In this document: positions 23,702-32,836 of the stretch, in pieces
Layout of the letters: each line of letters begins with the position of its first letter
How positions within the stretch are numbered: position 1 is the first letter of the stretch
Assembly (NCBI RefSeq): GCF_013407165.1
Contig: NZ_CP026994.1
Coordinates: 372,001 to 436,000, forward strand
Length of the DNA stretch: 64,000 nt
Reading direction: 5' to 3'
Source of the DNA: Nitrosopumilus oxyclinae
Lineage (GTDB): Archaea; Thermoproteota; Nitrososphaeria; Nitrososphaerales; Nitrosopumilaceae
Notes under the pieces: model-generated
What the model was told of the DNA's origin: nothing
What the model saw: only the letters and a program-made list of their open reading frames with translations
Database searches by the model: none
Position numbers and translations under genes: made by a program

Positions 23702-23766
23702 AATGTTTCTAGTGTTCCTTTTCTTTTTTATTGTTGTGAATAATTAGAATATTGTAGGTATTAGAG

Positions 23767-23982
23767 ATGGAACAAAACGAAATTGATGAAATTTTAGAAC
23801 ACATCAACACCAAAGTGGCAGAAAATGTTCCCAGTCTTGTAAAAATGATTGTTAGAAAAAAGCTTGGCAGTTTTCAATCATTTGAGGCTGAATCCTTGCC
23901 TGAATCTCTGAGAAATTGTTCTGTTGAGGAGTTAATCTCTATAGTTAAACACGGTCTTGATACTGGAAAATTAAAAATCTAA
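23767..23982 (+). CDS. Small acidic helical protein
   Basis: A 71-residue soluble protein, probably all-helical (EQNEIDEILEHINTKVAENV, then SVEELISIVKHGLDTGKLKI). No motif is recognised. Confidence 0.5.
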   Translation: MEQNEIDEILEHINTKVAENVPSLVKMIVRKKLGSFQSFEAESLPESLRNCSVEELISIVKHGLDTGKLKI

Positions 23983-24001
23983 GTCTGAAAATAATTTTCA
24001 T

Positions 24002-24049
24002 GGATCATTTGTTCATTAAGGTTTTAAACAAATTATGCTAATCTATGTC
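24002..24049 (+). promoter_or_regulatory. 48-bp promoter block shared with 61590-61637
   Basis: It begins GGATCATTTGTTC and contains a TTTTAA box about 26 bases before the ATG at 24050. It matches the block before the gene at 61638 at 36 of 48 positions with no gap, including the exact distance to the ATG. Confidence 0.7.
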
Positions 24050-24121
24050 ATGTCAAATGATAAATCTGAATCTTGGGAACAACTACTTGGTCTATCTTGG
24101 ACTATAATTGATGAAGAATAA
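24050..24121 (+). CDS. 23-residue peptide, short partner of the 61638 gene
   Basis: Encodes MSNDKSESWEQLLGLSW followed by TIIDEE. The segment LLGLSW followed by acidic residues resembles MVGLTW in the peptide at 61638, and both follow the same promoter block. The shared promoter makes this more convincing than length alone allows. Function unknown. Confidence 0.5.
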   Translation: MSNDKSESWEQLLGLSWTIIDEE

Positions 24122-24145
24122 ACTAAAGGATAGCATTCTTTATCA

Positions 24146-25588
24146 GTGAGGAAAAATTTTCAACCGTTATTGATGCCTAGAATTTTTGTATTTGCCGTAT
24201 TGCTACTAATTGGATTTGTGGCTGCATTTCAAACAGGTTATGCTCAGACTACAGAGCAGACAACAATTTCTGATGACTTGGAGAATAATCCAGTTGCTCA
24301 GGATATTTTGAGAAAAATAGAGCAGACAAAAAAATGGATTGCAGAATTAGAGGAGCGAAACTATGAGAATTTAGAAAAACAAAAAGAGTTGGAGGATAAA
24401 AGAGCTCAATCCCTTGAAAGACTAAATCAAGACCTTACTGATTGGGAAAATTTGTGGGAATATTATTCGCCATACAACTCTTTTGAGCGCTTTGTAGATA
24501 AAATTCCTGACTCTCAGGTGCAAGATGTGTTTTGGGATCAGTTTGAATTCAAAGAACAAAAAGTAAAGGCAGGACGAGATGCGCTAAAACAAGTATTGGC
24601 TGATGGGGGGACAAGACGTGCAGCATTCCAAGCATATCTTGCAGCTGCTGAAACTAAAAGAATTGAACTAATTGAAACCAATTCACAGTTTAATGTTAAA
24701 CACAACTTGGCATACTATTCACAGCAAATTCTATTTGATGTGGATGGAAAATTTGTAGATTCACCAGTAACTGGAGAGCAATTAAGACAATACTATGAGG
24801 ATTATAGAACAAATCCTGCATATCTGCAGGCAAATCCTGATGATGCCTTATCTTGGGATGATCTTGGAAAAACAAATCCTGATACAGAATGCAGAGATGG
24901 ACAAATAGTTGTGTACCGATACCATGCCGAGGATTATGTTTGTGTATCCGTATCTACTGCTGAGATGTGGATAAGACACGGAATGGGTGAAATTACAGGA
25001 GATGTACAAAATCGTTTTGCTTCTGAACCAATTACACCACTAACAAAATGCAATGATGGATTTATTGTAATCTACAATGTTGATACTGAAAAATATTCAT
25101 GTGTGTTAAATGAAACTGCACAAGAGTGGGTGGAGTCAGGAATTGCTGAAATTCATACTACTGATAACTATATCCAAACTAGTATAGAGAAAAAGGATGT
25201 AGACCTTAGAATTGCTGAAATTTCAATACAAATTCAAGATATGGAGCGTGAATTTGAAGATAGCCAATTAGAATTAAAAAAATTCTACGATAAAGTATAT
25301 GCTGATTTGCTATTCCAGTCAAAACTTGATGAGAAAAATGCTACACTAGACTATAATCAGAGTTCTGATATTACCAAAGAAGAACTAAGTATTAGGATTG
25401 CCGAGATTCGAGAAAATTATGAGACTGAGCAAGACTCTATCCTTGATGAAAAAATTGATGATTTGAAAGAACTTGAAACCAAATTTGAAGATAGCATGGA
25501 TGATCTTGTATCTCTTTATGAGCAAGATCCATACATTGAGGTAAAACTAGATTCTGATGGCATTGCATATGTAGTTCTAAGAGATTAA
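24146..25588 (+). CDS. Secreted coiled-coil protein with duplicated two-Cys domain
   Basis: A 480-residue exported protein. The signal peptide ends near GYAQ (residue 34). A coiled coil (about residues 50-100, TKKWIAELEERNYENLEKQK) and a second one at the C-terminus (about residues 340-460) flank two repeats of about 37 residues: TECRDGQIVVYRYHAEDYVC near 248 and TKCNDGFIVIYNVDTEKYSC near 301, each followed by a Trp helix (AEMWIRHGMGEI, AQEWVESGIAEI). Each repeat holds two Cys that could form a disulfide outside the cell. GTG start. Function unknown. Confidence 0.7.
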   Translation: MRKNFQPLLMPRIFVFAVLLLIGFVAAFQTGYAQTTEQTTISDDLENNPVAQDILRKIEQTKKWIAELEERNYENLEKQKELEDKRAQSLERLNQDLTDWENLWEYYSPYNSFERFVDKIPDSQVQDVFWDQFEFKEQKVKAGRDALKQVLADGGTRRAAFQAYLAAAETKRIELIETNSQFNVKHNLAYYSQQILFDVDGKFVDSPVTGEQLRQYYEDYRTNPAYLQANPDDALSWDDLGKTNPDTECRDGQIVVYRYHAEDYVCVSVSTAEMWIRHGMGEITGDVQNRFASEPITPLTKCNDGFIVIYNVDTEKYSCVLNETAQEWVESGIAEIHTTDNYIQTSIEKKDVDLRIAEISIQIQDMEREFEDSQLELKKFYDKVYADLLFQSKLDEKNATLDYNQSSDITKEELSIRIAEIRENYETEQDSILDEKIDDLKELETKFEDSMDDLVSLYEQDPYIEVKLDSDGIAYVVLRD

Positions 25589-25598
25589 TCTCGATATT

Positions 25599-25763
25599 AT
25601 GGATATCTGGAATAAATTACAAAATATCAGTTTCAAAAAAATGTCTATAATTTTTCTAATATTACTTGGAATTACGTTTCTTGGAATCTATGCTACTTGT
25701 GGAACTCTTTACAAAGTTGACTGCCATGAAGTATTATTACGTAAATTTCCAAGAGGATTTTGA
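25599..25763 (+). CDS. 54-residue single-helix membrane protein
   Basis: Encodes MDIWNKLQNISFKKMS, then a membrane helix IIFLILLGITFLGIYATCG and a short Cys-containing tail (KVDCHEVLLRKF). It begins 10 bases after the stop of the previous gene and ends 10 bases before the next, so it is probably the first small gene of the 25.6-27.9 kb operon. Confidence 0.6.
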   Translation: MDIWNKLQNISFKKMSIIFLILLGITFLGIYATCGTLYKVDCHEVLLRKFPRGF

Positions 25764-25773
25764 AAGTTAAAAA

Positions 25774-26124
25774 ATGAAAATAATTTTGTTTGATGATCAT
25801 CTGAGGGTAAATTTGAACCTACTTGAAAAAATTGGTGCTGCTAAAGGCTCATTTTACATTCCATATGATGATATTGTATCTGTCTTTTCAGAATCTCCTC
25901 ATTCTCAGTCGGGACTAAAAATTGCAGGAACAAATCTTCCGCGTATATTGGAACTTGGAACATATTTTGCAGATAAACAAAAACAATTTTGGTATACTAA
26001 GAAAAGAAAATATGATTTTCTTGTGTTGGTATTGAAATCAAATTTTTATTCTAAAATAATTTTAGAGCTGGCAGACAGTAAAGAAATTGCAAGTGAGCTC
26101 AATAAACTATTGGAGAAAAAATGA
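25774..26124 (+). CDS. PH-like domain protein (tentative)
   Basis: A 116-residue protein of mainly beta strands with a C-terminal helix. The order FYIPYDDIVSVF, then a strand with GTNLPRILELGTYF, KQFWYTKKRKYDFLVLVL, then IILELADSKEIASELNKLL matches the layout of bacterial PH-like (bPH) domains found with membrane proteins. The match is by pattern only. Second gene of an unknown membrane operon. Confidence 0.55.
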   Translation: MKIILFDDHLRVNLNLLEKIGAAKGSFYIPYDDIVSVFSESPHSQSGLKIAGTNLPRILELGTYFADKQKQFWYTKKRKYDFLVLVLKSNFYSKIILELADSKEIASELNKLLEKK

Positions 26125-26157
26125 AAATTAGATTTTTAATAAAATTGGAGCAAAACT

Positions 26158-26370
26158 ATGTTAGAATATAATATTGCAATTGTTGTAATTTTAGGAATAG
26201 TTCTGCTAATTGCAATAATATCTACAGTGAAAAATCATCGTAAGAAAACAAATTCTAATCAAGAAACATGTATTTCTTGTAGAGGTATGGGTTTTATTCC
26301 CACATATACAAGTAAACCAATTCCTCCATGTAAACGCTGTAATGGAACAGGATATGTGGATAGAAAATGA
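26158..26370 (+). CDS. Membrane-anchored DnaJ-type zinc-finger protein
   Basis: A 70-residue protein: one N-terminal membrane helix (NIAIVVILGIVLLIAIIS), a basic linker, then two CxxCxGxG motifs (CISCRGMG and CKRCNGTG), as in half of the DnaJ zinc-binding domain. No J domain is present. It could bind unfolded protein or scaffold its operon partners at the membrane. The stop overlaps the next start (ATGA). Confidence 0.7.
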   Translation: MLEYNIAIVVILGIVLLIAIISTVKNHRKKTNSNQETCISCRGMGFIPTYTSKPIPPCKRCNGTGYVDRK

Positions 26371-27320
26371 AAACAGAACACAAAATTATTCTGGTGATGA
26401 TATTCTTAACATCCTCTACATTGGTTCTGATTTACCAAAATCCTGATGGCGTTCCAAAATCCATATCATTTGAAAAACATTCTGATGATCTAGTTGCAAT
26501 GAATCAACTATCCAAAAAATATCAATTGACTGATGATGAGCAGAAATTTGAAAATTCAAAAAGACTGATGCAAGAAAAATTAAAAGAAATTTCCTTAGAC
26601 TATATGGGTCTAAAAATCACACATGTGGAATTACTTGAAGGGTACTATCCATTTCAAAACAGTACTCATTGGGCAGAAAGATTTGATTTAGAGCCTTCAT
26701 CTGTATGTGACTTTGAGCGTAAGATACCTCTGCATATGCAAAAACTCATGCAAACTGAAAATTTTAAAATATTTACAAAAAAATACGCCTCACACGACCT
26801 TGAATTATCAATACAGGATGAAAGAAGCCAGCAGTCCAATATTCATTATGGATTGTTTGCAACAAATAACAAAAATCAGAGTGCATCAACTTACTTTCAT
26901 CTGAGTTCATGCACTGATGAAATAACTGACAAGGAACCGTTGTATTTGCATTGTTTTGATGGTAGTACTGGCTATCGATATAACACACACACCTATGATG
27001 ATATAATTTCCAGTTATTCAAATGGAGAATTTTGTAATATTATTTTAGACCCGTGGAGACAATCTCTTTATGATTACTCTCAAACATTACGTGAAAAACT
27101 AAGACAGTTAGAGCAAGAATCTATGGGGAATACTTTTGATCAAGAATCACATTGGAAGTTTTTCTCAGAGATGAATAAGCAAGGAGAATTAAGAAACATT
27201 GTTGGAGCAATGATTCACGGTAAATTTGATGAGCAACGTACACAGGATATGATAAAGCAGTATGAAAAACAGTATGGTAGTCTGTCAGATGAATTATTGG
27301 AGTTAATTGAGAAGAGATGA
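26367..27320 (+). CDS. Membrane-anchored extracytoplasmic protein, unknown
   Basis: A 317-residue protein with an N-terminal hydrophobic helix (HKIILVMIFLTSSTLVLIY) and a large, probably extracytoplasmic part. That part has Cys residues in pairs (SVCDFERK, LSSCTDE, LHCFDG, EFCNIIL) that could form disulfides, and a Gln/Glu-rich C-terminal helical region. No family recognised. Overlaps both neighbours by 4 bases, so translation is probably coupled. Confidence 0.6.
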   Translation: MKTEHKIILVMIFLTSSTLVLIYQNPDGVPKSISFEKHSDDLVAMNQLSKKYQLTDDEQKFENSKRLMQEKLKEISLDYMGLKITHVELLEGYYPFQNSTHWAERFDLEPSSVCDFERKIPLHMQKLMQTENFKIFTKKYASHDLELSIQDERSQQSNIHYGLFATNNKNQSASTYFHLSSCTDEITDKEPLYLHCFDGSTGYRYNTHTYDDIISSYSNGEFCNIILDPWRQSLYDYSQTLREKLRQLEQESMGNTFDQESHWKFFSEMNKQGELRNIVGAMIHGKFDEQRTQDMIKQYEKQYGSLSDELLELIEKR

Positions 27321-27931
27321 AAACTAGTTTTAATTACTTTTTCACTCCAGTTGGTCCTGAATACAAGAAAAAGTTTGCAAGAAATGTTGGTGTTATAGTT
27401 TTAATTCTCTTTGCATTTTATGGTGTTATGAGTTTGATTGGTAGTGTCTCAGAATCTGAAAAAATTGAGATGATAGATGATGTTTCTCTAACCATTCCGT
27501 CTGCACAAGAATTTTTAGTAATGGACTGCGAATCTCTTAGTCATATTTATCCTGATTTTCCTAGTGAGGAGGTTGCAGACGCATGGATTACTAGAATGCA
27601 TGAATGTCTAAATGAACAAGAAAAAGAAAATGTTGCACCTAAAGTAATTGAACTGTTCAAAAATATTCCAGAAGTACAGGCATTTCAAATGCAATATGAA
27701 GATGCACAGATATCAGTAAGAAATGATCACGTGTCATATTTTTCTGGAAGTGAAGATGGTTATCTTGCTAGGATGAATCTATATTTTGATGAAAATTATA
27801 TTCTAGACCATATCGAATTTCATTGCTATTATCAAAAAGTTCATCAGATTGAGCTTCCTCAAGAGGATCTAGCATCAAAAATAAAAAAATTTGGCTGTAA
27901 AGAATATGCCGAGTCAAAAAATGAAAACTAG
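27317..27931 (+). CDS. Membrane-anchored protein, unknown
   Basis: A 204-residue protein. The basic N-terminus is followed by one membrane helix (NVGVIVLILFAFYGVMSLIG, residues 24-43), then a soluble part with four Cys (VMDCESL, MHECLNE, EFHCYYQ, KFGCKEY). It is the last gene of the operon and ends 1 base before the convergent regulator. Confidence 0.58.
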   Translation: MKTSFNYFFTPVGPEYKKKFARNVGVIVLILFAFYGVMSLIGSVSESEKIEMIDDVSLTIPSAQEFLVMDCESLSHIYPDFPSEEVADAWITRMHECLNEQEKENVAPKVIELFKNIPEVQAFQMQYEDAQISVRNDHVSYFSGSEDGYLARMNLYFDENYILDHIEFHCYYQKVHQIELPQEDLASKIKKFGCKEYAESKNEN

Positions 27932-27932
27932 C

Positions 27933-28502
27933 CTATGGAGTCTCTTCTGAGATATCATTAATGGTGACATAGACACGAAATTCACTCTCATCAATTTTCA
28001 CTGAGATATCATCAATTGTTGAATAGTATTTTTTGTTCTCATCTGTGTCCTTCAAGTCCAGTGTTGTGAGTAATCCGTGAGATATTAGATATGATATGTT
28101 CTCAGATAATGAAAAACTACCATATCTTGCCCTTGATGCAATCTCCCACAGTGTCAGAGGATAATCAAATGCAATATCCATAATGTGTTTTTTGAGTGGA
28201 TCATCATAAGAGTTTAAGATTGCATTTTTGAGCAATTCGTCTTTGATTTCTATTTTGTGTTTTGATTGGGGCTCCATGTGACATATCTTATCTAATGTCT
28301 TTCTGATTGTAGATGAGCCATCATGGCCCATAATTTTCTCTGTAATGCATTCAAACTTTTCAAAGTCTTTCAGTGATGATGCAAGCGTAATTTGATACTG
28401 TTCAAATAAATTGTTTTTAATTTTTGTAATGTCGTCTTTGTCTACAAAATCTGTAAATGTTTTCTCAAAAGGAGTGGCAAGGAGAGTCTCCATTGCAGTC
28501 AT
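27933..28502 (-). CDS. Helix-turn-helix regulator, second of a pair
   Basis: A 189-residue protein. The C-terminal half has a winged-helix pattern (PLKKHIMDIAFDYPLTLWEI, then a recognition-helix-like stretch SLSENISYLISHGLLTTL). The N-terminal half (ETLLATPFEKTFTDFV, then FECITEKIMGHDGSSTIRK) may be a thaumarchaeal sensor or output domain of the NitrOD type; that is a weak pattern match. The start overlaps the stop of the upstream regulator gene by 4 bases. Confidence 0.6.
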   Translation of the reverse strand: MTAMETLLATPFEKTFTDFVDKDDITKIKNNLFEQYQITLASSLKDFEKFECITEKIMGHDGSSTIRKTLDKICHMEPQSKHKIEIKDELLKNAILNSYDDPLKKHIMDIAFDYPLTLWEIASRARYGSFSLSENISYLISHGLLTTLDLKDTDENKKYYSTIDDISVKIDESEFRVYVTINDISEETP

Positions 28503-29005
28503 GGGTAGACTACTCCTAATCTTGCTTTGGGCAAACGTGATAGGTTTACCTGCAATCTTATCTGGCTGATTTTAGTTGATACACTAAACTCTGCCTTTGA
28601 AATTATTTTGTCAAACACTCTAACACGTTTTTCTGATTTTGTATATCCAACTGGCAAGATAAATCCGTCATGTAACAACTCGTTGAACTTGCGGTATGCA
28701 GAAGACAATGAAACTCCACACTTTTCAAGCAGCTCATCTTTTGCAATTGGTTTGTCAATGTGCAATAGAATCTTGCGCTTTACAGAATCACTGTAGATGT
28801 CTATAATTTTTTCTGCAAGACTGTGCTCGTACAGCTCAATCCACAAGGTATAGTCATGATCCTTGCTTATTGCAAGAGCTGATTTTATTGCATGTCTTGG
28901 AAGTTTATTCTCACATGCAAGCATTGTTCTCTCACCTGGTTCTAAGTTGTCATTTGCATTTCGAATCGTATCCATGCATAATAGCTGGGAAAACTGGTTT
29001 GGCAT
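28499..29005 (-). CDS. Winged helix-turn-helix regulator (ArsR-like)
   Basis: A 168-residue protein. The DNA-binding domain is near residues 70-125: SVKRKILLHIDKPIAKDELL, then CGVSLSSAYRKFNELLHDGF as turn and recognition helix, and a wing (KRVRVFDKIIS). The N-terminal part may sense a ligand or partner. Translationally coupled to the second regulator, with which it may form a heteromer. Confidence 0.68.
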   Translation of the reverse strand: MPNQFSQLLCMDTIRNANDNLEPGERTMLACENKLPRHAIKSALAISKDHDYTLWIELYEHSLAEKIIDIYSDSVKRKILLHIDKPIAKDELLEKCGVSLSSAYRKFNELLHDGFILPVGYTKSEKRVRVFDKIISKAEFSVSTKISQIRLQVNLSRLPKARLGVVYP

Positions 29006-29103
29006 TGTACCATAATATAGGTCAAAATCTTACTTAAGAAATTCTACTTTTTGTTATTTTTGAAAAAAAGATTATTGCTTATATAGAAGAGAAAATTTGT
29101 GCC

Positions 29104-29126
29104 TAAAAAAGAGGGGTTTAGCCCCT
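29104..29126 (-). terminator. Hairpin spanning a stop codon, with T-tract
   Basis: Read on the minus strand: arm AGGGG, loop CTAAA, arm CCCCT, then CTTTTTT. The TAA stop of the membrane protein gene (29118-29417) is in the loop. Confidence 0.6.
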
Positions 29127-29417
29127 TCCCATTGCGGCATACTTGCCTTTTCTACCTCGAAGGAAGAACATTGTTGCAACTCCGCCAAATACTCCAGCAG
29201 ACAAGATGGATGCTCCAACTATTCCATCAGCTGCAAATACAGGAGTGCCAGAACCTGTTGCATCTTTTTGTGTTGCAATCTCTACTTTGATTCTAGAGTC
29301 TTTCATTCCTTCATACAGTCCTTTTTCAGAAATATCATACTGTGCAAAGGCTGGCTGTATCATAACAACTAGCAATGCAAGTGATATGCCTGTAAACAAA
29401 ACAGATTGTTTTTGCAT
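29118..29417 (-). CDS. Small secreted protein with C-terminal membrane anchor
   Basis: A 99-residue protein. A signal peptide (cleavage likely after PAFA, residue 25) is followed by a short outside segment, a second hydrophobic helix (GIVGASILSAGVFGGVATMF) and a basic tail (LRGRKGKYAAMGRG). This type I topology is the same as in the divergent gene at 29517. CTTTTATCAT about 26 bases before the ATG is the probable TATA box. Confidence 0.7.
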   Translation of the reverse strand: MQKQSVLFTGISLALLVVMIQPAFAQYDISEKGLYEGMKDSRIKVEIATQKDATGSGTPVFAADGIVGASILSAGVFGGVATMFFLRGRKGKYAAMGRG

Positions 29418-29516
29418 GAGAGGTTAATTACATCTGTATGATAAAAGACACAGATCATTTTCTCAATTAAAATAATTTCTTATTGTTGTTTTATGTGATT
29501 GTAACCTAAATGAGAC

Positions 29517-30626
29517 ATGTACAAAGCGATTGTCCTACTTTTGGTATTGATAGTGTCAATATCATCAGCTAATCATGTATCTGCTGCACAATTGGATGCT
29601 GCAATTGCCAAGGATTCAGATGAATTTATCCCAACTTATCAGTTTACAAGAATTATTACAATAAACCATGATGGTGATGCAGAACTACAAAGATTGGTGG
29701 GTGATGGTATCAAGGTATCATTTGATATTGACAAATCAAATGCTGACTCTATAATATCTCAGATAAACGCAGAACTGGAGAAAAAATCTTTTGCAAAGGT
29801 TACTGATGTCTCTGGAAAATATTCTGCACTTGTATCTGTGCAGGAAAAATCAATTGGTATAGAGTATAGGATAGTCCTAAACCCTACAATTCAGAATCAC
29901 TATGTTGGAGATTCAAGTACTTTGGATTCTCAGTGGAGAGGATTCTCAATTGAGGGAGTAATTCCTGTAGATACTGAATATGGAGAATATGACATCAACT
30001 CTCCAAGTAGTGTTCTTGCAGTATCTCATGGTATGGTGCTAGAATATTTATCTGGTAGTGAGGCAATGGAGATACTAGAGAGTCCTCTAATTGATGCTGC
30101 AGGAATTTCTGAATTTCCATTACATAGATGGGAATCAATGTTTGATCCTACTGCCAAGATGAGTGAGACTGTAGATTTCAAGTTTTCAGGCACAGTAATC
30201 ACCAATTATTCAATGGGAATCTGTACTGTATACATTGGATTCTGTGAAGACAAAAAGATGTATCAGGAATTTACAATTGACGGAGAAGAATATTCTATTC
30301 GCTCAATAGAGTCCCAGGATGATGCAACAATAGTCATTGAAGGATATGTCAATGAGTCTAGAATAGGAAAAGTTGAGGTGTTTGCAATTCAGGATGATGC
30401 ACCAGTTATTGTAAAAGAAGATGACATGCAGGTAGTTGCAATGTATGGTATATCTGGACTTGGGGTTGCAGCAGCTGTCGGATTCTTTGTAATTAGTGAC
30501 CGAAAGGCAAAGAGAACGAGTTCCGAGCAATCCGGAATTGATCCTGCACATTTGGAGTCAGTTCCAATATCAAGTTCTGTCGGAGGATACCGGACAAACA
30601 GAGGAACATCACAACTAAAGACCTAG
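29517..30626 (+). CDS. Type I membrane protein with large outside domain
   Basis: A 369-residue protein. A signal peptide (LLLVLIVSISSANHVSAAQ) is followed by about 260 residues of mostly beta outside domain, with a possible disulfide (GICTVYIGFCED). A membrane helix near residues 303-324 (YGISGLGVAAAVGFFVI) and a basic, Ser-rich cytoplasmic tail follow. It is divergent from a smaller protein of the same topology, and a TATA-like box (TTTTATGTG) lies about 26 bases before the ATG. Function unknown. Confidence 0.68.
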   Translation: MYKAIVLLLVLIVSISSANHVSAAQLDAAIAKDSDEFIPTYQFTRIITINHDGDAELQRLVGDGIKVSFDIDKSNADSIISQINAELEKKSFAKVTDVSGKYSALVSVQEKSIGIEYRIVLNPTIQNHYVGDSSTLDSQWRGFSIEGVIPVDTEYGEYDINSPSSVLAVSHGMVLEYLSGSEAMEILESPLIDAAGISEFPLHRWESMFDPTAKMSETVDFKFSGTVITNYSMGICTVYIGFCEDKKMYQEFTIDGEEYSIRSIESQDDATIVIEGYVNESRIGKVEVFAIQDDAPVIVKEDDMQVVAMYGISGLGVAAAVGFFVISDRKAKRTSSEQSGIDPAHLESVPISSSVGGYRTNRGTSQLKT

Positions 30627-30640
30627 AATTAGTATTTTTT
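30614..30640 (+). terminator. Weak hairpin around a stop codon, with T-tract
   Basis: Arms ACTAA and TTAGT flank a 10-nt loop that holds the TAG stop of the preceding gene; TATTTTTTTT follows. Confidence 0.4.
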
Positions 30641-30766
30641 TTAAATTTTTTTATAATTGAATTTTCATTAATGCATCTGGAATGAATTACAAATTAAGAA
30701 TTAAACAAGTTTAAAATAAAAAATGAATATATTGCAGACTGATTAGCACACGAGTATCTGATTATT

Positions 30767-31036
30767 ATGAAATGCAAATATTGCGGTAAAAATTTTAATG
30801 CAAAAAATTCTATTTTTTGTTCTAAAAAATGTAACACTTACCATTCTGCAGAATTAGAACGTAAAACTAATTTGAAATCTGTAACTGTAACAATAAAGAT
30901 GGACCAAGATGTATCTAATGGCCTTAGAAAAATTCAATCAGATCTTATTCGAAATGCGACTGAGAACATCTCTTTTTCATATGTTGTGAATCTCGTACTA
31001 AAAGAAGGAATTAAAAATAAAAAATTAGCATCCTGA
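30767..31036 (+). CDS. Zinc-ribbon plus ribbon-helix-helix-like DNA-binding protein
   Basis: An 89-residue protein. The N-terminus is a zinc ribbon (MKCKYCGKNF, then IFCSKKCNTYH). The second half (KSVTVTIKMDQDVSNGLRKI, then a helix ending VVNLVLKEGI) has the strand-helix-helix pattern of small MetJ/Arc-type regulators. It probably binds DNA as a dimer. Monocistronic. Confidence 0.62.
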   Translation: MKCKYCGKNFNAKNSIFCSKKCNTYHSAELERKTNLKSVTVTIKMDQDVSNGLRKIQSDLIRNATENISFSYVVNLVLKEGIKNKKLAS

Positions 31037-31117
31037 GTTGTTTTAATTGAAATATTGATTTCTTTGGAGAATTGGAATTACAATTATAAGTAATATGTTC
31101 ATAAATGATGCATATTG

Positions 31118-31492
31118 ATGAAATCTAAAGTTTTTCTGATTGTACTATCATCTTTAGTGATAATCTCAACTGGAGTTGTATTGTATTTCTTTGAGTTTCA
31201 AGATCCTAGAATAACTAATCTCACTTTTAACAACGTCAAAGTATCAAAAATTACCGAAACTGGTGCTATTTTTGAATCTACGACTGATTATCCAATCAAG
31301 TGTTATGTAGAATATTTTGAAAAAGATTCACCGACAAATATCATTGAGAAAGATCATTCCAACCTTCCTCATGAAGTTCATAAAATTGTGGTCATGGATT
31401 TGAAACCTGATACTGAATATTCGTATAGATTTACAACAATGTTTGATGGACATACAATTGCTCCTGAATGGATGTCTTTTAGAACCCTGTAG
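31118..31492 (+). CDS. Membrane-anchored fibronectin type III-like protein
   Basis: A 124-residue protein: N-terminal anchor (VFLIVLSSLVIISTGVVLYF), then one outside beta-sandwich domain. The signature VVMDLKPDTEYSYRFTTMFD is typical of FN3 and purple-acid-phosphatase N-terminal domains. ATG 31118 is preferred over the TTG directly before it. Likely surface binding role. Confidence 0.65.
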   Translation: MKSKVFLIVLSSLVIISTGVVLYFFEFQDPRITNLTFNNVKVSKITETGAIFESTTDYPIKCYVEYFEKDSPTNIIEKDHSNLPHEVHKIVVMDLKPDTEYSYRFTTMFDGHTIAPEWMSFRTL

Positions 31493-31511
31493 AGGGGCAG
31501 TATTAGATAAG

Positions 31512-31607
31512 ATGAAAACTAGACTTTTGGCAATACTTGGAATTATCTTGGGTTTTGGTGTCTTAATTTCAATTCTATTTTTAGAATGGGTTTCACAATT
31601 TGAATAA
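31512..31607 (+). CDS. 31-residue single-helix membrane peptide
   Basis: Encodes MKTRLLAILGIILGFGVLIS, then ILFLEWVSQFE: a short basic start and one membrane helix. It begins 19 bases after the FN3-like gene and is probably co-transcribed. Small size keeps confidence moderate. Confidence 0.45.
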   Translation: MKTRLLAILGIILGFGVLISILFLEWVSQFE

Positions 31608-31696
31608 TTCTTTTTTCATATCTAATCCTTGGAATTGTAATATTTGATCGCTGACAGATGATCTGGTTTAAATCGACTTTAAATTTTTAATTTCTA

Positions 31697-32677
31697 ATGA
31701 CAAGTAAAACAATCATTGCAGGACTTGTGGCTTTAGCATTTGTCGCAGGTACTATAATGACAGGAACAACGGTATATGCCGAACATAAACCTGGCCACCA
31801 AACAAATTCTGGTGGATTAGGTGATTTGCAAAAACAAGTTGATGAAAATTCTGGACATATTACAGTTCTCAAAGGACAAGCTGATGGATTTGATACTGAA
31901 ATGGTACAATTGCAAGCACGTGCAAGTGCTCTAGAGGAGTCACAGGCATCTGTAGATTCATTCTTTGATATTTTCATAGAATTTTATGAATCTCCTGATA
32001 GCTTCTTTGACATCTTCACAGATGCATCTGGAAATCGTATTGATTCATTCTTTGATGTCTTTACAGAGATTTCAGTACATGATGCTGATGTGGAAAGAAT
32101 TGATACTGAAATAGTATCACTTGATCTACGGATTGATGATCAACAAGATCAAATTGATGCACTAGTAACTAACCCTCCATCTGAATCTGCCTCTACTTCA
32201 GCATACATCAAATTTGATGGTGTTGATGGTGAAGCAATAGATAAGGATCACCAAGGTTGGAGTGATTTATTATCATTTGACCAAGGATTACATCAACCTG
32301 GAGGAGCTGCAACTGGTAGTACACGTACACGTGGTGATGTAGTAATGGATGATGTTGTAATTGTAAAAGAATTAGACAAAGCTAGTCCAAAAATTGCTGA
32401 ATCTGTAGCTTTAGGAAAAGTATATCCAAAAGTTGAGATTAATTTAACCGCAACGTATGGTGATGCAGGTCGACTTACTTACTATGCATATGAACTAACA
32501 AATGTTCTAGTAACAAGCTATAACATTAGTGGTTCAGGTCAAGGAGAAGATGTTCCAGCTGAGAGTTTCTCATTAAACTTTGAGGAAATCAAGGTAACAT
32601 ATACCGAACGTGATTCTAACGGTGATAAGAAAGGCAACGTAGAATACTCATGGAAAGTTGAGGAAGGAACTTCCTAA
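31697..32677 (+). CDS. Exported protein with C-terminal Hcp-like (type VI tube) domain
   Basis: A 326-residue protein. A signal peptide (IIAGLVALAFVAGTIMTGT, cleavage near VYAE, residue 29) is followed by a heptad-like region (DLQKQVDENSGHITVLKGQA). Three short repeats come next (VDSFFDIFIEF, PDSFFDIFTD, IDSFFDVFTE, about residues 85-130), then a second coiled-coil stretch. From about residue 168 to the end lies an Hcp-family pattern: YIKFDGVDGEAIDKDHQGW, DKASPKIAESVALGKVYPKV, NVLVTSYNISGSGQ, AESFSLNFEEIKVTYTERD. In bacteria Hcp rings form the type VI secretion tube and have no signal peptide. No other type VI gene is present here. Confidence 0.82.
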   Translation: MTSKTIIAGLVALAFVAGTIMTGTTVYAEHKPGHQTNSGGLGDLQKQVDENSGHITVLKGQADGFDTEMVQLQARASALEESQASVDSFFDIFIEFYESPDSFFDIFTDASGNRIDSFFDVFTEISVHDADVERIDTEIVSLDLRIDDQQDQIDALVTNPPSESASTSAYIKFDGVDGEAIDKDHQGWSDLLSFDQGLHQPGGAATGSTRTRGDVVMDDVVIVKELDKASPKIAESVALGKVYPKVEINLTATYGDAGRLTYYAYELTNVLVTSYNISGSGQGEDVPAESFSLNFEEIKVTYTERDSNGDKKGNVEYSWKVEEGTS

Positions 32678-32700
32678 TTTTTTCTTTTTTTCTTTTAATT
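32661..32700 (+). terminator. Hairpin next to the Hcp gene stop codon, with T-tract
   Basis: Arms AGGAAG and CTTCCT (6 bp) flank loop GAA; the right arm ends in the first base of the TAA stop. ATTTTTTCTTTTTTTCTTTT follows. Confidence 0.55.
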
Positions 32701-32762
32701 AAAAATTCAAACTTTTTCCATTTGTGACTAATTTTGGAAAATATTGAAAAAACAAATGTTTT

Positions 32763-32784
32763 AGATATTGCCGTTTTAATATCT
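32763..32784. promoter_or_regulatory. Inverted repeat upstream of leuCD operon
   Basis: Perfect 7-bp arms AGATATT and AATATCT with an 8-bp spacer, about 50 bases before the leuC start and upstream of its TATA-like CTTTTAATC. A candidate operator for amino-acid control; it could be chance in AT-rich DNA. Confidence 0.35.
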
Positions 32785-32836
32785 GACATACGGACATCTG
32801 AAAAGCTTTTAATCTGTAGAACAAGCTTTTTTCATT

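Follow-up and report, generated by a model that had tools for sequence, protein, structure and literature searches.

The stretch of DNA analyzed here, referred to as the window, is a 64,000-nucleotide segment of the genome of the marine, ammonia-oxidizing archaeon Nitrosopumilus oxyclinae (contig NZ_CP026994.1, positions 372,001 to 436,000), and its gene of interest encodes a predicted exported protein that carries a domain of Hcp, the tube protein of the type VI secretion system (T6SS). An earlier note, made from the DNA alone, had proposed an Hcp-like gene at 31697..32677; an intact open reading frame (ORF) of 326 residues occupies exactly these positions on the forward strand, on which all its parts described below also lie. 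The predicted signal peptide spans residues 1-28 (31697..31780) and is recognized from a hydrophobic stretch that has a maximum 12-residue hydropathy of 2.88 and ends in TTVYA, with a putative cleavage site between TTVYA and EH; N-terminal hydropathy is the measure by which export is scored throughout this work. Over residues 1-30, the protein shares 67% identity with the N-terminus of another secreted-type protein of the family, encoded in genome G032. The signal peptide is followed by a putative helical, coiled-coil-like stalk at residues 29-165 (31781..32191), supported by predicted helices and sequence likeness, and then by the Hcp domain at residues 166-323 (32192..32665).

The stalk contains three copies of a DSFFD(I/V)F repeat, DSFFDIF at 31955..31985 and at 31997..32027 and DSFFDVF at 32042..32072, with a spacing of 42 and 45 nt, equivalent to 14 and 15 residues or approximately two heptads. 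The pattern has four matches in the window versus 0.22 expected, and none of 100 shuffles reaches four. Both the signal peptide and the three repeats had been called in the earlier note, and the repeats hold at the DNA level as well. The AlphaFold model, built from an input alignment of 44 proteins, places stalk helices at residues 67-98, 118-126, and 132-157 with moderate confidence. Matches of the stalk to the TolA_bind_tri and SpiroCoCo models fall below the cut-off and are not used.

Assignment of the C-terminal domain to Hcp relies on profile, sequence, and structural comparisons. A profile search and a fold prediction were two of the checks that the earlier note had suggested, and both agree with its reading. 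The Pfam model PF05638 (T6SS_HCP) matches residues 170-302 over its full length with 106 bits against a cut-off of 23.5 (E 2.2e-30), and the NCBIfam model TIGR03344 also exceeds its cut-off (60.4 versus 58.9). Fifteen Hcp-containing PDB sequences are matched by phmmer at E<1e-9, the best of which are 4w64 (2.4e-22) and 1y12 (5.6e-20). The predicted fold is that of Hcp, a beta-barrel with one helix and an extended loop; the barrel and helix have pLDDT values of 93-98, and the loop is lower with block means of 66 and 84. The best Foldseek matches are all solved T6SS Hcps (3eaa, TMt 0.89; 8yun, 0.92; maximum 0.93). The solved proteins 4w64, 1y12, 3eaa, and 8yun share the fold of the window domain with TMt values of 0.80-0.92, and most of the ring-contact residues of 4w64 are kept; they differ in being only 22-34% identical to the window domain and in serving as cytosolic tube subunits of a contractile machine.

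No such machine is detectable in this archaeon. The genome is a single contig of 1,585,110 bp that is 99.75% complete, and a search of the whole of it finds no TssB/VipA, TssC/VipB, VgrG, or phage-type sheath (PF04984), while the positive controls are detected. The absence of type VI genes, which the earlier note had described for the window, thus extends to TssB, TssC, and VgrG across the genome. Membership of a T6SS, a phage tail, or an extracellular contractile injection system is rejected because VipB, VipA, VgrG, and a phage-type sheath are missing. Contamination is likewise rejected given the single-contig genome, the native codon use, and the archaeal flanking genes cofE and leuC. Neither VipB nor VgrG is found in the 21 other Hcp-positive archaeal genomes; in one of them (G224) a VipA match falls below the cut-off. 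A separate observation is a phage-type contractile sheath gene above the cut-off in another Hcp-positive archaeon (G037, locus L211, G037:C3:21898-22233). No confirmed relative of the window Hcp is encoded by viral contigs, and a viral origin is rejected, the viral fold matches being limited to distant tube and baseplate proteins. With a signal-type N-terminus, an Hcp domain, and no T6SS genes within ~5 kb, the window gene falls into the export-type grouping proposed here; it lacks two features of a T6SS Hcp/TssD, namely a cytosolic product without a signal peptide and a genome that harbors TssB/C and VgrG.

Very close relatives of the window domain belong to bacterial T6SS. In a scan of 85,000 species genomes, the domain is 74-79% (~77%) identical over its whole length to Hcps of Rhodopirellula, Stieleria, and other Planctomycetota, and of Desulfobacterota, such as Desulfosarcina (L082-L093, L098, L099, L112). 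All conserved columns and the Hcp fold are common to both sides of this comparison; the bacterial proteins, however, start with MAA..., carry neither signal peptide nor stalk, and are encoded beside VgrG, ClpV-like ATPase, TssF, TssG, TssC, and gp25/TssE genes, as identified by Pfam in representatives. At one Planctomycetota locus beside a ClpV-like gene, the Hcp domain is followed by 534 further residues (L131:2402-4561), possibly an Hcp with a C-terminal extension.

Not all bacterial Hcps are cytosolic. The earlier note had set the protein apart from bacterial Hcp by its signal peptide; the signal-type N-terminus is real, but the contrast was drawn too strongly, as many bacteria encode export-type Hcps. 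T6SS genes lie within ~5 kb of 42 of the 53 cytosolic Hcps at bacterial loci versus none of the 23 exported ones, a count that leaves out two neighbour clusters (11 and 14) and whose p value of 1.7e-11 is indicative only, as contig ends truncate some of the loci and related ones cannot be counted as independent. At the level of whole genomes, TssC is present in one out of 22 exported-Hcp genomes versus three out of three T6SS controls. Many exported-Hcp genomes are metagenome-assembled genomes (MAGs), and some of the contig labels, such as ‘Nanoarchaeia’ for L128 and ‘Woesearchaeota’ for L148, call for caution. The sole TssC-positive case is the Verrucomicrobiales MAG of locus L094, in which a separate Hcp (an open frame of 184 residues) lies ~0.5 kb from TssC on another contig. 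The exported Hcp of L094 resembles the window gene in its signal peptide, its ~75% identical domain, and the lack of T6SS genes nearby; it differs in having no coiled-coil stalk, in being followed by a long second exported Hcp, and in the separate T6SS locus of its MAG. The same order of a short and then a long Hcp gene recurs at the bacterial loci L094, L119, L128, L142, and L150, and in the Verrucomicrobiota family of L094 additional Hcp genes are paired as neighbours, their open frames measuring 186 and 991, 202 and 1002, and 216 and 409 residues.

Phylogenetic trees place the window domain together with the exported L094 Hcp inside the group of cytosolic T6SS Hcps. The high identity to cytosolic T6SS Hcps and the nesting among them suggest that the window Hcp domain was probably acquired laterally, in a direction read from this placement; its arrival seems to have been comparatively recent. 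A single clade of all exported Hcps is rejected (p-AU 3e-59), as is one that unites three archaeal exported Hcps (3.6e-5), both tests sharing the long-branch limits of the model. By these trees and rejected clades, the exported Hcps are a functional grouping and not a monophyletic family, which indicates that Hcp has been recruited for export, or has moved between lineages, more than once.

The genomic setting of the window gene is also variable. The gene lies in a region of 9,056 bp (23741..32796, no strand assigned) that is missing in close relatives. In three of them (G091, G133, and G088), the sequence corresponding to window position 23740 joins that of 32797 directly, with cofE and leuC adjacent; 23741-32796 is therefore extra in this strain. 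Other relatives have different or rearranged content between cofE and leuC, and one (G164) contains parts of 26410-29098; the site between the two genes is therefore variable. An island mediated by a tRNA or an integrase was considered and rejected, there being no tRNA near the junction and no recognized recombinase domain. Within this region, the gene has native codon use, with a codon adaptation index of 0.72 versus 0.68 for leuC. A TATA-like TTTAAAT read from the sequence at 31667..31673 on the same strand, ~27 nt upstream of the ATG, would by its position fit a leaderless archaeal transcript. Matches to a sigma-70-type promoter near the gene are at chance level, and such a promoter is rejected.

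The window protein is not the only Hcp of the genome, a point that the earlier note had missed, as it had the close bacterial T6SS relatives, the accessory region, and the wider cross-domain set. Two more exported Hcps are encoded ~8-11 kb past the end of the window (L007:8156-11746, C1:444156-447746), the first a signal-peptide Hcp of 197 residues and the second, 63 bp downstream, a signal-peptide Hcp of 977 residues that also carries TSP3, Cu-binding MopE, and HYR domains. In the trees this pair sits apart from the window Hcp, in a more divergent clade that is archaeal and all-exported. Across the family, Hcp exceeds the cut-off in 22 of 250 Nitrosopumilaceae genomes; in the phylum sample, 11 of 398 genomes are positive. 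No other listed genome of the same genus has an Hcp in either survey. Nearly all complete archaeal Hcp copies have a signal-peptide-like N-terminus.

Pairs of a short and a long Hcp gene are found at 13 archaeal loci, and the short gene comes first in all 11 co-directional pairs. The long partners carry TSP3, HYR, or Big_3_5 domains, and stalkless short exported Hcps are frequent. The Nitrosopumilaceae pairs (L007, L067, L061, and others) are similar to the window gene in their signal peptide, Hcp domain, and lack of a T6SS, and differ from it in forming a two-gene cassette with a long partner that contains TSP3, HYR, or Ig-like domains. The window gene is solitary and fused to its own stalk, and it does not have the cassette form seen at L007.

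Upstream of the L007 pair lies a gene for a 1025-residue SdrD_B-type surface protein (L007:4935-8012). Its C-terminus resembles that of the long L007 Hcp: both have a helical tail (EIDKANKEM..., DKAIDxxKKAWKHAQKA) and, after it, an acidic stretch rich in D/E, which may be a common signal for surface anchoring. A C-terminal motif without a Pfam match, VPxWIKNNAxWWADGxIxDxxFVxGIxFLIxxGII, recurs at L007:13421-14941, L050, L051, L053, L064, L067, and L078, and is carried by numerous secreted proteins of archaea, long Hcp partners among them. In six genomes of one genus (G065-G068, G072, and G073; loci L030-L035), Hcp matches below the cut-off lie in frames with two to three TAG codons and may be either decayed genes or chance matches.

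The stalk motif of the window protein is shared with a protein that carries a different head. Over a 34-residue segment containing the DSFFD repeats, 62% identity is seen with a 308-residue secreted-type protein of another genome (G012; L164:865-1791), which has a signal peptide and the DSFFD(I/V)F stalk motif as in the window protein, followed by collagen repeats and a phage tail Collar head where the window protein has Hcp. Conversely, three other archaeal proteins (L059:3031-4068, L068:8616-9668, and L074:8559-9599) consist of a signal peptide, ~130 residues without a Pfam match, collagen-like GPxGPA repeats, and Hcp; the Pfam Collagen match on the first is below the cut-off. As judged from their sequences, these three represent a second stalked-Hcp architecture. 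As the stalk motif precedes a Collar head in one protein and Hcp follows collagen-like repeats in others, Hcp seems to serve as an interchangeable head for surface stalks.

The capacity of the domain to form rings was assessed at 24 columns with at least 90% conservation in 50 T6SS-type Hcps. All 24 are retained in the window protein, compared with 46-54% in the L007 pair. The hexamer interface of an Acinetobacter Hcp involves P71, E75, G80, Q38, V152, Y139, and W156 (PMC4469607), the equivalents of which in the window protein, based on a phmmer alignment, are P231, E235, G240, Q200, V315, Y302, and W319. A hexameric ring is thus likely for the window copy, and rings or tubes on the cell surface, which the earlier note had raised, are plausible.

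We therefore consider, with belief and doubt in about equal measure, that a T6SS tube protein has been co-opted into an exported surface module that is borne on a stalk, probably forms rings, and operates independently of a T6SS. A bacterial type VI tube subunit would have been acquired laterally; in the protein, it follows an archaeal signal peptide and a stalk module. Following export by Sec, the stalk would oligomerize and display the Hcp barrel on the outer side of the membrane. There the barrels would assemble, most likely as hexameric rings and possibly as short stacks, to form a structural or adhesive head at the cell surface. Sec export, surface display, ring assembly, and a structural or adhesive role of the protein are inferred. 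The short-then-long pairs could make up a polymer on the cell surface, with the short Hcp as its building unit and the long Hcp as its cap or anchor; for the window gene, anchoring would fall to the fused stalk.

A number of points weigh against this proposal. The Hcp gene varies between strains and most relatives lack it, and its role is therefore not essential to the group. Confidence in the stalk model is low to moderate, with pLDDT values of ~53-77 at residues 61-170, and support for the node that joins the window domain to L094 is moderate (ultrafast bootstrap 80, SH-aLRT 89). Coiled-coil and collagen stalks are usually trimeric, and Hcp rings are hexameric; a ring borne on two stalk trimers and a head free of rings are both possible arrangements. 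Three residues of the reference ring, R37, W74, and K155, are replaced by H199, A234, and S318, W74 being described as non-conserved (PMC4469607).

In the strongest alternative, the Hcp barrel forms no ring or tube and does no more than provide a trimeric fibre with a stable head for binding or adhesion, similar to the Collar head of phage tail fibres. We regard this as a serious but less probable explanation. It accounts for the stalk motif in common with the Collar-headed collagen protein and for the archaeal Hcps behind collagen-like repeats, which imply trimers, and it is consistent with the loss of about half of the T6SS-conserved columns in the older archaeal exported Hcps. However, the window copy retains every one of these columns and most ring contacts, which is difficult to account for unless some constraint acts, although this may reflect a recent arrival, and many short exported Hcps lack a stalk altogether. 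A transient acquisition without function in a variable region is unlikely: close relatives do lack the region, but the ORF is intact with native codon use and a fitted signal peptide and stalk, the T6SS-conserved columns are all kept, and the genome encodes two more exported Hcps. It is more doubtful still that the protein acts as a decoy or sink, binding effectors carried by Hcp, or tube parts, that the T6SS of neighbouring planctomycetes or desulfobacteria delivers. The very high identity to the Hcps of these bacteria and the description of T6SS Hcp as an effector transporter and chaperone (PMC4469607) are in keeping with such a role, but exported Hcps occur widely and in diverse forms, often fused to or paired with adhesin-type domains, no immunity-type genes are recognized beside the window gene, and archaea are not known T6SS targets. 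A tube of an unrecognized T6SS, extracellular contractile system, or tailed virus is scarcely credible and already contradicted, since, despite an Hcp fold distantly similar to phage tube proteins, sheath components and VgrG are missing genome-wide, a signal peptide would route the protein out by Sec, and no viral contig encodes a confirmed relative.

The window protein is one member of a larger set of export-type Hcps from archaea and bacteria, which is polyphyletic and mostly lacks a T6SS. The Hcp domain family is known; its exported, stalked, and cassette forms outside T6SS are the variant, and no paper on an archaeal or an exported, T6SS-independent Hcp was found in the open-access literature, to which the survey was confined. 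More tentatively, exported Hcps could constitute an unrecognized cross-domain class of extracellular ring or tube assemblies, made of short-plus-long Hcp cassettes or of stalked Hcps, that reuses the T6SS subunit repeatedly, independently of the contractile machine.

The presence of Hcp is usually read as a sign of type VI secretion. The occurrence of export-type Hcps across archaea and bacteria, mostly in genomes in which no TssC is found, is a warning against inferring a T6SS from Hcp matches alone. The exported Hcps also provide small proteins suited to direct study of assembly by electron microscopy. Together, these findings suggest an extracellular module, probably one that forms rings, that can be reused and passes between domains of life.
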